Source of the DNA: Euzebya sp.
GTDB taxonomy: Bacteria; Actinomycetota; Nitriliruptoria; Euzebyales; Euzebyaceae
DNA: 64,000 nt
Direction of reading: 5' to 3'
NCBI RefSeq assembly: GCF_964222135.1
Contig: NZ_CAXQBR010000065.1
Location: 62,001-126,000 of the forward strand
Shown: one piece after another, positions 13,416-57,870 of the stretch
How positions within the stretch are numbered: the stretch's first letter is position 1
Layout of the letters: each line of letters starts with the position of its first letter
The notes under the pieces: model-generated
Told to the model about the DNA's origin: nothing
The model's database searches: none
The model's input: the letters and a program-made list of their open reading frames with translations, nothing else
Made by a program: the position numbers and the translations under genes

Positions 13416-13610
13416 ATGAGCGACATGAGCTACCTCCACCTCGTCCACCTCGAGCGCTCGGCCGCGGTCGACCCGCACCGCTGGGCGCCGATCTCCACGC
13501 TGGTCGCCGACCGGCGCAGCCCGTCGCGCCACGCCACGACCCGTCCGGTGCGGCGCACGCGCACCGCCCGCCGCCTGGTCCTGGCAGTGGCCCTCGCGAT
13601 CGCCGCATGA
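13416..13610 (+). CDS. Small ORF, 64 residues, overlapping the LuxR-type regulator
   Basis: A 64-residue ORF whose TGA stop overlaps the ATG of the next gene (ATGA), the arrangement used for translational coupling throughout this window. The N-terminal half is hydrophilic, the middle is Arg-rich, and the last 14 residues (LVLAVALAIAA region) are hydrophobic. No homologue is recognised. It might be a leader ORF for the regulator rather than a functional protein. An in-frame GTG at 13401 is an alternative start. Evidence for expression is only the overlap, so confidence is moderate. Confidence 0.45.
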   Translation: MSDMSYLHLVHLERSAAVDPHRWAPISTLVADRRSPSRHATTRPVRRTRTARRLVLAVALAIAA

Positions 13611-16507
13611 TGGAGCCCGTGCCCCCCTCCACCGCACCGCTCGCCGGCCGCGGCACCGAGCTGGCCGTCCTCGCGCGGCTGGCGGACGCGGCGCGGCGGG
13701 ACGGCGACCTGCGCGTCGCCGTCGTGTCCGGAGAGGCGGGCATGGGCAAGACGGCGCTGATCGAGGCGTTCTGCGCGACCGTGGCCGACCAGGCGACCGT
13801 GCTGCGCGGCGAGTGCCTCGACCTCGGGTCCGCCCGGCTCCCCTACGCGCCCGTGGTCCAGGCGCTCCGGCCGATCCTGCGGGCGCCCGCGGAGGCCGGC
13901 CTGCGCCTGGACGACCCGGCCCGGTCCACCCTCTCCCGGCTCGTGCCCGAGCTGGGCCGCCACGACGAGCCGGGCCGCGGGCCCGAGGTCCCTGCCGGGA
14001 TCCAGGACCTCGAGGTCGGCCACACCCAGCTGTACGAGCACCTCCTCGGCGTGGTCGAGGGCGTCGCGCGCGCCGCCGGCCTGGCGGTCTGGTGCGTCGA
14101 GGACATCCACTTCTCCGAGCCGGCGACGCGGGACCTGATCCAGTTCATGGTCGGCAACCTCGCCGCGGTGCCCGTCCTGCTCGTCCTGACCGTCCGCACC
14201 GACGAGGTCGGGCGCCGCCACCCGGTGCGGCCGCTACTGGCCGCGCTGGACCGCTCCCCCCGGGCGACCTCGGTGGCGCTCGGACCCCTGGGGCCGGTGC
14301 CGATGACCGAGCTGATCCGCCCGGCCCTGGCGGACTGCAGCCAGCGCCAGGTCGACGAGGTGCTGGACCGCGCTGCCGGGAACCCGCTGTTCGCCCTCGA
14401 GCTGGCGGCCGGCGGCACCCACCTGCCGAGCCAGCTCTCCGATCTCCTGCTCGACCGCGTGGAGCGCTGCGACCCCGCGACCCAGCAGGTCCTCAGGGTC
14501 ATGGCCGCTGCCGGCGAGCACGTGCCCCACGAGGTGCTGGCCGCCGTCACCGGCCTCGCGTCCGAGGCCCTCACCACGGCCCTGCGCGAGGCGGTCGACA
14601 GCCGGCTGGTCGTCGTCACCGCCGACGGGACCTACCGGTTCCGCCACGCCCTGATGCAGGAGGCGACCGAGGACGCCCTCCTCCCCGGCGAGGCCGTCGA
14701 GCTGCACGCCGCGCTCGCGGAGGTGCTCACGGCCGACGGCGGCCCCGGCGGCCCCCACGCGGCGAGGCTGGCCCGGCACTACCGCGCCGCGCACCGCCCC
14801 GAGCTCGAGATCCAGGCCGCCTACGTGGCCGGACGACGCGCTCTCGACGTGGTGGCCTACGCCGACGCCCAAGCCCACTTCGAGCGGGTCGCCGCGCTGT
14901 GGGCCGACGTGGCGGACGCCGCGGAGCGGACCGGCGACGACCTCGCCGGGGTGCTGAAGCACGCCGCCATCTGCGCGATCTCCGGGTACGACCTGCGGCG
15001 CGGCATCGCCCTCGCCAACCAGGCGCTCGCCCACCTCGACGCCGAGGCCGAACCTGAGCGGGCGGGTCTGATCCACATGTGGGTCGGCCACGGCTCGAAG
15101 GCCGACTGGACGGCCGCGGAGGCGGCGTACCGCCTCGCGGTGGAGACCGTCCCGGACGCCGATACGCCTGCGCGGGCTCGGGTCGAGGCGGCGTTCGCGA
15201 CCGCCCTCGAGCTCGAGGACCACGTCGAGGAGGCCGAGGCCCGCGCCCTGCGCGCCATCGAGGTGGCACGGCGTGCGGGATCCCCGCGCGACGAGGCGTA
15301 CGCGATGATCACCCTCGCGTCGATCCGCAGCCGCACCGGATCTCCCGAGGCCGACGAGCTGTTCGCCTCGGCCCGTGCGCTCGCGGAGGACATCGGGCGG
15401 ATCGACTACCTGTTGCGGTGCGACATCAACCTGAGCGACCACCACACCGTCCACGGGCGGTTCGCCGAGGCCGTGGCGGTCGCCGAGCGGGGCATCGCGC
15501 TGGCTCGCACCCACGGCCTCGAGCGGACCTACGGCAGCGTCCTGCGCTCCAACGCGCTGGAGGCCCTCGTCCCGCTCGGACGGCTGGCCGAGGCGCACGA
15601 GCTCGCCGCCGAGAACGCGGTCACCGCGCCCGACGGCATCACCGGGGCGCACGCGCTCATGACCCTCGGCGCCGTGGAGGTCCGCCTCGGCCTCGTGGAG
15701 GAGGCGGCCGACAGCGCGCTGGCGGCCGAGCGGCACCTCGGACGGACCTCCCAGCCGCAGTTCCGCAGCATGCTCGACCGCCTGTCCTGCGAGGTGGCGA
15801 TGGCGACCGGCGCGCACGACCGGGCACTGTCGCTGTCGCTCGCTGCGCTGGCCCACCTCTCGACGCGAACCGGCCTGGCGCGCCACGACGCCGGGATCGC
15901 GGTCCAGGGCGCCGAAGCCGTCCGGGCGGGCGCCGGGGGGCCGGATGAGCTGGCCGTGCTCGGCGACGCCGTGGCCGCAGCCGCCAGACGGGGTGAGAGC
16001 GCCCCGCACGCCGCCGACCGCCGTCAGCTCGCGGCGCTCCTCGCCGAGGTGGCCGGCGCGGCCGACGCCGTCGACCGCTGGGACGCCGCCGCGACCGGGT
16101 TCGCCGAGCTGTCGATGCCCGTCGAGCGGTCCCGCTGCCTGCTCGGCGCGGCTGAGCTGCGACTGCGCGACGGCGACCGGGCAGGGGCGCAGCGCGACTG
16201 GAAGCGCGCCCTGCGGTTGGCGACCGACGCCGAGGCCCGGCGCCTCGTGCACGCCGCCGAGGCCCTGGGCCGCCGGGGCGGCTTCCTGGCCGGCGACGAC
16301 GTCGCCGACGGGTACGGCCTCACCGCCCGCGAGCACGAGGTCCTGCGACTCGTCGCCGAGGGGCTCAGCAACGCCGAGATCGGCGAGCGGCTGTTCATCG
16401 CGGCGAAGACCGCCAGCGTCCACGTCTCGAACATCCTCGCCAAGATGGGGGTGCCGTCGCGCCAGCACGCCGCCGCGCTCGCCCACCGGTCCGGGATCCT
16501 CAGCTGA
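13607..16507 (+). CDS. LAL-type LuxR family transcriptional regulator with ATPase domain
   Basis: A 966-residue regulator. An AAA/STAND-type ATPase lies at the N-terminus with Walker A SGEAGMGKT (about 41-49) and a Walker B-like LAVWCVEDIHF. A long helical, TPR-like region follows (about 330-880). The C-terminus has a LuxR-type helix-turn-helix (LTAREHEVLRLVAEGLSNAEIGERLF). Proteins of this class (MalT/LAL) bind a ligand and nucleotide, oligomerise and activate transcription. The ligand and target genes cannot be deduced; nearby genes are crcB and the selenoprotein candidate. Translation is likely coupled to the 64-residue ORF upstream. Confidence 0.92.
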   Translation: MMEPVPPSTAPLAGRGTELAVLARLADAARRDGDLRVAVVSGEAGMGKTALIEAFCATVADQATVLRGECLDLGSARLPYAPVVQALRPILRAPAEAGLRLDDPARSTLSRLVPELGRHDEPGRGPEVPAGIQDLEVGHTQLYEHLLGVVEGVARAAGLAVWCVEDIHFSEPATRDLIQFMVGNLAAVPVLLVLTVRTDEVGRRHPVRPLLAALDRSPRATSVALGPLGPVPMTELIRPALADCSQRQVDEVLDRAAGNPLFALELAAGGTHLPSQLSDLLLDRVERCDPATQQVLRVMAAAGEHVPHEVLAAVTGLASEALTTALREAVDSRLVVVTADGTYRFRHALMQEATEDALLPGEAVELHAALAEVLTADGGPGGPHAARLARHYRAAHRPELEIQAAYVAGRRALDVVAYADAQAHFERVAALWADVADAAERTGDDLAGVLKHAAICAISGYDLRRGIALANQALAHLDAEAEPERAGLIHMWVGHGSKADWTAAEAAYRLAVETVPDADTPARARVEAAFATALELEDHVEEAEARALRAIEVARRAGSPRDEAYAMITLASIRSRTGSPEADELFASARALAEDIGRIDYLLRCDINLSDHHTVHGRFAEAVAVAERGIALARTHGLERTYGSVLRSNALEALVPLGRLAEAHELAAENAVTAPDGITGAHALMTLGAVEVRLGLVEEAADSALAAERHLGRTSQPQFRSMLDRLSCEVAMATGAHDRALSLSLAALAHLSTRTGLARHDAGIAVQGAEAVRAGAGGPDELAVLGDAVAAAARRGESAPHAADRRQLAALLAEVAGAADAVDRWDAAATGFAELSMPVERSRCLLGAAELRLRDGDRAGAQRDWKRALRLATDAEARRLVHAAEALGRRGGFLAGDDVADGYGLTAREHEVLRLVAEGLSNAEIGERLFIAAKTASVHVSNILAKMGVPSRQHAAALAHRSGILS

Positions 16508-16543: not shown

Positions 16544-17083
16544 ATGGGTCGCTCCCTCCTGGTCGCCTGCCTGGCCGCCTGCATGGCCGTCGTCCTGGCG
16601 GCCTGCGCGACGCCCGCGGATGCGCCCACCGGTGACGTCGGGTCGGCGTCGGCGTCGCCGACGACGGGGACGGGGACGGGGCTCCTCGCCCTGACCGCCC
16701 CGACGGTGGACGGCGGGACGTTCGACGGCGCGTCGGTGTCCGGCCAGGACGTGATGCTGTGGTTCTGGGCGCCCTGGTGACCGACGTGCAACCGGGAGGC
16801 TCCCGAGGTCGCACAGGTGGTGGGACTGCTCAGCGAGGACCAGGTGATCGTCGGCGTGGCCGGACGGGACGACGTCGAGGCCATGGCGGACTTCGTCGCC
16901 CGGCACGAGCTGGATGACGTGGTCCACATCGCCGACGTCGACGGGGACGTGTGGGCCGAGTTCGGCATCCCCAGCCAACCCGCCTGGGCGTTCGTCGGCG
17001 CCGGCGACGACGAGGCGACCGTCCGCTTCGGCGCGCTCGGCCGCGACGGGGTGCTCGACGCGTTCGAGTCCGGCGGGCTCTAG
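16544..17083 (+). CDS. Candidate selenoprotein: thioredoxin-like lipoprotein with in-frame TGA (Sec) at the redox motif
   Basis: Read with the TGA at 16778-16780 as selenocysteine, this is one 179-residue protein. Residues 1-21 are a lipoprotein signal with lipobox LAAC (C21). A low-complexity Ser/Thr/Ala linker follows, then a TlpA/ResA-type thioredoxin fold. The redox site reads FWAPW-U79-P-T-C82, where the family has W-C-x-x-C, and continues in the same frame (NREAPEVAQVVGLL) through to the cis-Pro segment GIPSQPAWAFVG. No other stop interrupts the frame up to TAG at 17083. A hairpin at 16786-16814 meets bacterial SECIS rules and tRNA-Sec is encoded at 57778-57870. The likely role is thiol-disulfide exchange outside the membrane. 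TACGCT at 16532-16537 suggests a leaderless start. Automatic annotation would stop at residue 78 or call a pseudogene. Confidence 0.82.
16786..16814 (+). promoter_or_regulatory. Putative bacterial SECIS hairpin
   Basis: Directly after the TGA, GTGC (16786-16789) pairs with GCAC (16811-16814), ACC (16791-16793) with GGT (16807-16809) and GGGA (16794-16797) with TCCC (16801-16804), leaving a three-base loop G-G-C and small bulges. The loop begins 18 nt after the TGA, within the 16-37 nt window known for SelB-dependent elements, and has the expected G in its first two positions. The hairpin is inside coding sequence, as in formate dehydrogenase genes. Confidence 0.68.
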
Positions 17084-17161
17084 CGACGCACCGGGCGGAG
17101 GACTGACGCCCATGGCGCAGTCCGCGGTTGACCCGTCGCCGCCGTGGCGAGGATGGCGGCG

Positions 17162-18610
17162 ATGACCGACCGCACCAGCCTCGGGGGTCGCGCCCGACGG
17201 GCCGCGTCGCTCGCCCGCCTCGGCGCCCGGGCGGGCAGGGGCCTGGTCGCGACCCGTCGGGCGGAGCGCCGCGGTGACGAGGCGGCTGCCGAGGCAGGGC
17301 ACGAGGCGATCGCCGAGGCGGTGTTCGAGACGCTCGGGTCGATGAAGGGCGCGGCCATGAAGCTCGGCCAGATGCTCGCCTTCGTGGACCTCGACGTCGA
17401 CCCGGCCACGACGGAGATCTACCGCTCCAGGCTGAACGCCCTGCTCGACCAGGCCCCCGCGACCGACACCGACGCCATCGAGGCCACGATCGCCGAGCAG
17501 TACGGCGCACCTGCCGAGCAGGTGTTCGCCCGGTGGGACCGCGAGCCGCTCGCCGTCGCCTCCATCGGCCAGGTCCACACCGCCGCGCTGCCCGACGGCA
17601 CCGAGGTGGCGCTGAAGGTGCAGCACCCCGGCATCGCCGAGGCCGTGCAGGCCGACGTGCAGAACCTGACCGCCCTCCGCGGGCTGTTCCGCGTCACCCA
17701 CCCGAACCTCGACGCCACGGCGCTGATCGCCGAGGTCCGCGAGCGCCTGCGCGACGAGCTCGACTACCAGAAGGAGGCCGCCTACACCCAGGCGTTCGCC
17801 GACCGGTTCGCGGGCCACCCGGCGATCCGCGTCCCCCGCGTGTTCCACGACTGGTGCCGGCCGCGGGTCCTCGTGACCGAGTACGTCCCCGGGCGCACCT
17901 TCGAGGAGGTCCTCGCCGACGACGACCAGGCGACCAGGGACCGCTTCGGCGAGATCATCTTCCGGTTCACCTTCTCCTCCCTGTACCGCTTCCGGATCTT
18001 CAACGCCGACCCGCACCCGGGGAACTTCATCTTCCCGCCCGCCGACGCGGCGCGGACCGGGCCGGTCACGTTCATCGACTTCGGGTCGGCCCGCACGTTC
18101 TCGTCCGAGACCCGCACCCGGCTGCGCGCCCTGCACCGCGCCGTGGCGGCCGACGCCGCCGGCGACCCGAGCGGCGAGTCCGCGGTCGAGCGCGCCATGG
18201 CGGATGCCGGACTGCTGCCCGAGGACCGCAGGGGCATCGACCTCGAGCGGGTCCGGCGGTGGTTCGCCATCGCGTACGAGCCGCTCGCCGGGGATCGGGA
18301 GTGGACCTACTCGAGGGACTACGCCCGCCGACTGATCAGCGCCAGCACCGACCCCTCCCAGGGCATGGAGCCGACCCTGCGCCGACTGACGATGCCGGCC
18401 GAGTACATCCTCCTCAACCGCATCCAGTTCGGGGTCAACTCGCTGCTCGCACGCCTCCAGCCGACCGCCAACTGGCAGGCGATCATGGAGGAGATCGCCA
18501 CCGGCGGCCCGGCCACCACCCCCCTCGGCGAGGCCGAGCGGGACTGGCTCGAGGCGGTGGGAGACCTGGCGGAGCACCCCGATGCCGCCGCCCCGACCGC
18601 GACCGGCTGA
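17162..18610 (+). CDS. AarF/ABC1/UbiB-family atypical kinase
   Basis: A 482-residue protein of the ABC1/ADCK/UbiB family. The hallmark KxGQ segment is present (GAAMKLGQMLAFVD), as are the Ala-rich nucleotide loop (EPLAVASIGQVHTA), LKVQHPGI, the NADPHPGN catalytic loop and the FIDFGSA metal-binding DFG-type motif. In Gram-negatives such proteins support quinone biosynthesis; in actinobacteria the role is less clear and may concern lipid handling. The ATG at 17162 was preferred to GTG 17144 and ATG 17153 because GAGG lies 9 nt before it. It starts 78 bp after the selenoprotein candidate on the same strand. Confidence 0.9.
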   Translation: MTDRTSLGGRARRAASLARLGARAGRGLVATRRAERRGDEAAAEAGHEAIAEAVFETLGSMKGAAMKLGQMLAFVDLDVDPATTEIYRSRLNALLDQAPATDTDAIEATIAEQYGAPAEQVFARWDREPLAVASIGQVHTAALPDGTEVALKVQHPGIAEAVQADVQNLTALRGLFRVTHPNLDATALIAEVRERLRDELDYQKEAAYTQAFADRFAGHPAIRVPRVFHDWCRPRVLVTEYVPGRTFEEVLADDDQATRDRFGEIIFRFTFSSLYRFRIFNADPHPGNFIFPPADAARTGPVTFIDFGSARTFSSETRTRLRALHRAVAADAAGDPSGESAVERAMADAGLLPEDRRGIDLERVRRWFAIAYEPLAGDREWTYSRDYARRLISASTDPSQGMEPTLRRLTMPAEYILLNRIQFGVNSLLARLQPTANWQAIMEEIATGGPATTPLGEAERDWLEAVGDLAEHPDAAAPTATG

Positions 18611-57697: not shown

Positions 57698-57777
57698 GGG
57701 GTGTGGGTCCTCGCTCGTCGGTGCCTCGGGCGTGGCATCGTGCCCGATCTCGGAGCGCCGGTCACGCCGCTGTCCAG

Positions 57778-57870
57778 CGGAGGCGGACGGGAATCGAACC
57801 CGCCAGGACGACCGAGTCGCCCTCGTCGGTTTTGAAGACCGCGGGGCCCACCAGGAACCCAGACGCCTCC
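57778..57870 (-). tRNA. selC: tRNA-Sec (anticodon TCA)
   Basis: 93 nt. The 5' end GGAGGCG pairs with CGCCTCC at the 3' end (57779-57785 on the plus strand), with an eighth T-C position. The D-side segment CTGGGTTCCTGGTGGGC is typical of selenocysteine tRNAs. The anticodon loop CTTCAAA has TCA at 57835-57833. A long variable arm (GACGA with TCGTC) and the T-loop GCGGG-TTCGATT-CCCGT follow; discriminator G, no encoded CCA. The 8+5 acceptor/T-arm pattern and long variable arm distinguish it from suppressor tRNAs. It implies a working UGA-to-Sec system in the genome. Confidence 0.95.

Follow-up and report, generated by a model that had tools for sequence, protein, structure and literature searches.

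The gene at 16544-17083 of the analysed window, a DNA stretch of 64,000 nucleotides (C65:62001-126000), very probably encodes a lipid-anchored, extracytoplasmic Sec-x-x-Cys oxidoreductase of the DsbF/DsbE(MPT53) type, in which SelB would decode an in-frame UGA by way of a hairpin at 16808-16826. The features on which this reading is built are as follows, with the three sel genes given by contig and by profile score.

13607-16507 (+): LuxR-family AAA regulator gene (Pfam GerE and AAA_16), upstream neighbour, possibly co-transcribed
16544-17083 (+): gene for a DsbF-like UxxC thiol-disulfide oxidoreductase selenoprotein, predicted to be lipid-anchored; 179 aa, Sec79 (read-through translation, Pfam, phmmer, AlphaFold2 model)
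16544-16606 (+): signal peptide and lipobox, ending at Cys21 (VLAAC)
16778-16780 (+): TGA codon, predicted to encode selenocysteine at the first redox residue of UxxC; TGA in 40 homologues, TGC/TGT in 12
16808-16826 (+): SECIS hairpin, type 2, conserved in 23 genes with covariation
17144-18610 (+): ABC1 atypical kinase gene (Pfam PF03109), downstream neighbour
57777-57870 (-): tRNA-Sec gene (ARAGORN; Rfam RF01852, 70.7 bits)
C65:43057-44892, on the window's contig: selB (303 bits, cut-off 242)
C65:46294-47583, on the window's contig: selA (424 bits, cut-off 268)
C3:152979-153902: selD (386 bits, cut-off 125)

Reading frame, fold and family

The ATG at 16544 is in frame with the TGA at 16778-16780, which is followed by 100 sense codons and a TAG at 17081-17083. 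Back to the preceding stop there is no other in-frame start codon, and ATG 16544 was therefore taken as the start; it lies 36 nt beyond the end of the LuxR-family gene, on the same strand. Without selenocysteine decoding the frame would comprise 78 residues, and read through it yields 179, with U79 within WFWAPWUPTC. Because the DNA is very GC-rich, long chance frames are common (the ORF listing of the window abounds in frames of at least 100 codons), so the length of the open frame was set aside as evidence for a selenoprotein gene. Three observations do go beyond chance: the similarity to DsbF/MPT53 continues across the TGA, 39 other genes share this TGA, and the pattern of codon and SECIS around it has a single occurrence in the window and none in 100 shuffles.

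The first-pass annotation had placed the TGA at the first redox Cys of a thioredoxin-fold frame that stays open beyond it, and comparison with solved structures bore this out. By phmmer the nearest are DsbF of Mycobacterium tuberculosis (3ios, E 3.5e-31) and its secreted DsbE/MPT53 (1lu4, E 5.3e-28); in both cases the alignment spans the TGA uninterrupted and places it opposite the first Cys of the active site (WFWAPW[U/C]xxC). An AlphaFold2 model built from 12 family members has a domain pLDDT of about 95, and among PDB entries it again matches 3ios best (TM 0.90 by target length, 42% identity), followed by 1lu4 and then by ResA at about 20% identity. Since Cys21 of the lipobox (VLAAC21) is unchanged in an alignment of 12 sequences, the window protein is predicted to be a lipoprotein. 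The earlier proposal of a TlpA/ResA-type lipoprotein thus stands as far as the thioredoxin fold and the lipid anchor are concerned, but the nearest relatives are DsbF and DsbE(MPT53).

In sequence and fold the window protein is closest to 3ios and 1lu4, and it differs from that family in having UxxC where the active site is CxxC; we read it as a Sec variant of the DsbF/DsbE(MPT53) family. It shares with M. tuberculosis DsbF (Rv1677) and DsbE/MPT53 (Rv2878c) a single-domain fold, the WFWAPWxPTC site and export, whereas the mycobacterial proteins have Cys at the first position and the window protein and its 39 relatives have a predicted Sec, together with a SECIS. Bacillus ResA and the CcmG-type TlpA proteins resemble it in fold and in their membrane-anchored extracytoplasmic position, but are Cys-only and about 20% identical. 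No NCBIfam model matched the window protein above its cut-off. The ResA-like WAxxUGC profile NF041054, which also describes a ResA-like Sec protein, gave a weak match of 24.2 bits against a curated cut-off of 300; its members are longer and have the motif UGC rather than UxxC.

Matches to three Pfam families, AhpC-TSA, Redoxin and Thioredoxin, were found in the read-through product. That the first two score highest would suit a protein acting mainly as a thiol peroxidase or a cytochrome c maturation reductase, as would the setting of a second Sec DsbF copy in one relative (G023), just downstream of ccm genes and a cupredoxin-like gene (identified from ORF translations, not by a gene-by-gene profile search) and near a ferric-reductase-like protein and a Sec CcdA-like gene. 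We regard such a role as possible, though considerably less probable than general disulfide exchange: ccm neighbours are absent at most family loci, and the closest relatives with known biochemistry, DsbE and DsbF of M. tuberculosis, act as disulfide oxidants in vitro, both folding hirudin oxidatively (PMC3853704).

Conservation of the TGA codon, the SECIS hairpins and the selenocysteine machinery

An order-level search recovered 13 well-matching loci in 12 genomes, each with exactly one internal TGA. In a phylum sample of 397 genomes the TGA form was present in 32 and a Cys form of the close family in 11; two more hits without TGA (G018 and G046) were more remote. Adding the remaining genomes of the class and two MAGs from GenBank (JAHDFR010000044.1 and JAAEMS010000319.1) brought the set to 40 TGA genes, of which two come from these MAGs and 38 from 37 numbered whole genomes (G023 has a pair), and to 12 Cys genes whose site could be resolved. 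In all of them the TGA or Cys codon falls at one alignment position, and the TGA genes have no other stop. Homologues with Cys aligned to the TGA were found in Jiangella and Nocardiopsis, in M. tuberculosis (DsbF/MPT53) and in 10 further sampled genomes. The in-frame UGA is thus aligned with the redox Cys of homologues, as expected of a bacterial selenoprotein, and the homologues extend past it. Cys homologues across the TGA, along with selB in the genome, had been named beforehand as the support to look for, and both were found; no refuting condition named alongside them came true.

In most related pairs dN falls well short of dS both before and after the TGA (for G022/G023a, dN/dS is 0.042/0.414 upstream and 0.052/0.354 downstream), so the sequence beyond the TGA is translated and under selection as a protein. 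Purifying selection is alike on the two sides. On the gene tree, two Sec/Cys changes suffice to explain the distribution of 40 Sec and 12 Cys genes, where shuffled labels need 11 on average; the tree has no outgroup, and the count gives no direction of change. The genes collected place the TGA form in many actinobacterial lineages.

Downstream of the TGA the family has hairpins of two types. Type 1 has the loop GGUC, lies at +26 from the TGA and was found in 17 genes; type 2 has a five-base loop, mostly AG[G/U]UN, lies at +34 and was found in 23 genes including that of the window. In the window the stem pairs 16808-16814 with 16820-16826 (6 of its 7 positions are paired, the other being an internal G.G mismatch) around the loop AGGUG at 16815-16819, 34 nt after the TGA. 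One or the other type is present in all 40 TGA genes and neither in any of the 12 Cys genes. Compensatory changes are far above those of slid controls for both types, with a covariation score of 0.355 in each against 0.204 (type 2) and 0.133 (type 1) after shuffling, values reached in 0 of 500 shuffles. When synonymous codons were redrawn with the protein held fixed, pairing in the type 2 stem exceeded the redraws (combined p about 1e-15), while the excess for type 1 was modest (combined p 0.004); relatedness was ignored in both, and the types had been recognised on the same sequences that entered the test. For type 1 the redraw test errs on the conservative side, since the amino acids, too, appear to be chosen to fit the stem.

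Both types satisfy the published constraints on bacterial SECIS elements, namely a loop of 3-9 nt, a G in the first two loop positions and a distance of 16-37 nt from the UGA (PMC13188914). With a stem of 4-16 bp and an MFE of at most -7.5 also applied, the window hairpin conforms, having its AGGUG loop at +34 and an energy of -10 kcal/mol, and the family stems have 6-7 pairs. The first-pass claim of a SECIS-like hairpin at the right distance therefore holds for the hairpin at 16808-16826, which is backed by comparison, but not for the most obvious GC-rich one: the prominent GGGAGGCUCCC hairpin directly after the TGA is strong in the window's own order but is not conserved across the family, in which the downstream hairpins are kept. 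Single-sequence folding energy was dropped as evidence, being ordinary for the composition (z about 0). RNAalifold returned no common structure for the 40 TGA genes taken together, because the two hairpin types are mixed in that set. These orthologous genes thus carry a SECIS at one of two fixed positions, +26 or +34, largely tracking the gene tree.

The genome searched (5.06 Mb in 111 contigs, 97% complete) has selA, selB and selD, for which a search had been advised, all above curated cut-offs, and the tRNA-Sec gene reported earlier in the window was recovered by both Rfam and ARAGORN. It thus holds the four genes expected of a genome with a bacterial selenoprotein. Across the phylum sample selA was found in 30 of the 32 genomes with the TGA form, compared with 205 of the 365 without it (p = 8e-6, relatedness ignored), and in 5 of 11 carriers of the Cys form. 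A tRNA-Sec of at least 56 bits was detected in 32 of the 37 TGA-carrying genomes, again with relatedness ignored; the five TGA carriers without a clear tRNA-Sec and the two without selA are all draft genomes.

These observations bear on two other explanations of the TGA. It is very improbable that UGA is read here as Trp or Cys, through suppression or a changed code: any read-through would keep the frame and Cys would be chemically favoured at position 79, but TGA serves as a terminator in other family members and in neighbour genes, and the TGA genes track selA and tRNA-Sec and carry a SECIS. An ordinary premature stop, with the downstream similarity a decaying pseudogene remnant or the TGA a sequencing error for TGC/TGT, would fit the 78-residue frame and the TGC/TGT of the Cys homologues at the aligned codon, yet is the least probable reading and in practice refuted by conservation, given that 39 other genes, drawn from many families and assemblies, have the identical TGA, that purifying selection acts on downstream codons and that the matched hairpin is restricted to TGA genes. 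Because the TGA is conserved, the downstream codons are under selection, the hairpins occur only with TGA and selA co-occurs, we infer selenocysteine insertion rather than sequencing error or pseudogene.

Proposed mechanism, redox partner and further candidates

SelB with Sec-tRNA would decode the UGA at 16778-16780 under the guidance of the hairpin at 16808-16826. Once the protein is exported, lipidation of Cys21 would anchor the enzyme at the outer face of the membrane, where Sec79, ionised at neutral pH and both a fast nucleophile and a good leaving group, may exchange disulfides with exported proteins or small thiols. In UxxC thioredoxin-fold enzymes the first-position Sec attacks and the second-position Cys resolves, and for this reason Sec79 is assigned the attack here and Cys82 the resolution of the mixed selenosulfide. 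The function would thus be extracytoplasmic thiol-disulfide exchange, with the redox state most likely set by a membrane protein of the CcdA/DsbD type.

For the mycobacterial enzymes, DsbD or the CcdA-like Rv2877c has been proposed as partner of Mt-DsbE and Mt-DsbF, with VKOR serving DsbA (PMC3853704). No VKOR was found in the search of the window's genome, so it was set aside as a partner, and there are at least four DsbD_TM/CcdA-family matches; a CcdA/DsbD-type partner is therefore the better guess. Such partners usually supply electrons, whereas DsbE and DsbF of M. tuberculosis are oxidants in vitro, so electrons may flow in either direction. Gene neighbourhoods of the Sec DsbF family gave no common arrangement across lineages: a conserved neighbourhood was rejected, the first clusters being mostly wrong-frame ORFs. 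Because neighbours vary by lineage, they lend little weight to any particular partner or substrate.

A membrane protein of the CcdA/DsbD_TM family with an N-terminal HMA domain was observed in the window's genome (G000:C46:12690-13484; L125, L131; relatives L132-L138 and L141). In its gene a TGA replaces the second conserved Cys (...GFGUTGPILAGLAG...); this TGA is shared by 8 of the 397 genomes and is followed by a conserved hairpin resembling CUGGCC-GGUCU-GGCCGG, so the gene looks like another undescribed selenoprotein. A second copy, G000:C27:1467-2265, lies in two pieces and different frames near a contig end and is perhaps frameshifted or misassembled. Sec CcdA-like and Sec DsbF genes co-occur in four of the eight genomes, which is more than expected (p = 0.002, or 0.006 among selA-positive genomes, relatedness uncorrected), and in one relative, G023, the two are close together. 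There the second Sec DsbF copy (G023:C4:364000-377000, L097) follows the ccm cluster and the cupredoxin-like gene, stands beside a ferric-reductase-like membrane protein (Pfam) and is convergent with the Sec CcdA-like gene. An extracytoplasmic selenium relay in Actinomycetota, with the Sec CcdA-like protein (HMA plus DsbD_TM) passing electrons to the Sec DsbF lipoprotein, is conceivable on this pattern but doubtful.

A further Sec candidate is found at G010:C37:190697-190990 (-) (L129), in which a thioredoxin domain with an in-frame TGA at its first redox Cys (VVLDFWTYAUVNCLHTLP) precedes a propeller-like region, apparently of NHL repeats. Two weak TGA hits were rejected: in L128 the TGA precedes an ordinary thioredoxin whose CGPC site is intact, and L130 had no convincing match.

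Place among known selenoproteins

The UxxC TlpA-like/redoxin superfamily already has Sec members, known at the domain level. A published table lists a Sec 'thiol-disulfide isomerase-like protein' (cd02966, UxxC), a 'Redoxin family protein' (PF08534, UxxC) and a 'Prx-like thiol:disulfide oxidoreductase' (PF00578) (Table 1 of PMC13188914). These share with the window protein the thioredoxin-fold superfamily and UxxC, but are entered by domain only, and no DsbF-type actinobacterial lipoprotein subfamily is named there. Our literature search, for which most subscription papers were out of scope so that an earlier mention is possible, returned nothing on DsbF together with selenoproteins, on selenoproteins of Acidimicrobiia or on a DsbF-type Sec lipoprotein subfamily in Actinomycetota. 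Within the reach of these searches, the Sec DsbF lipoproteins thus appear to be a real, conserved selenoprotein family that has not yet been described. The curated family library that was searched does not recognise the gene as a selenoprotein, so in databases the gene is likely to be cut short or overlooked.

The family would add a widespread Sec subfamily to a phylum in which few selenoproteins are described, and would place selenium chemistry in actinobacterial extracytoplasmic disulfide exchange. With two SECIS positions in orthologous genes, how these elements move or get replaced becomes directly testable, and the well-studied mycobacterial Cys counterpart can serve for a direct comparison of Cys and Sec.
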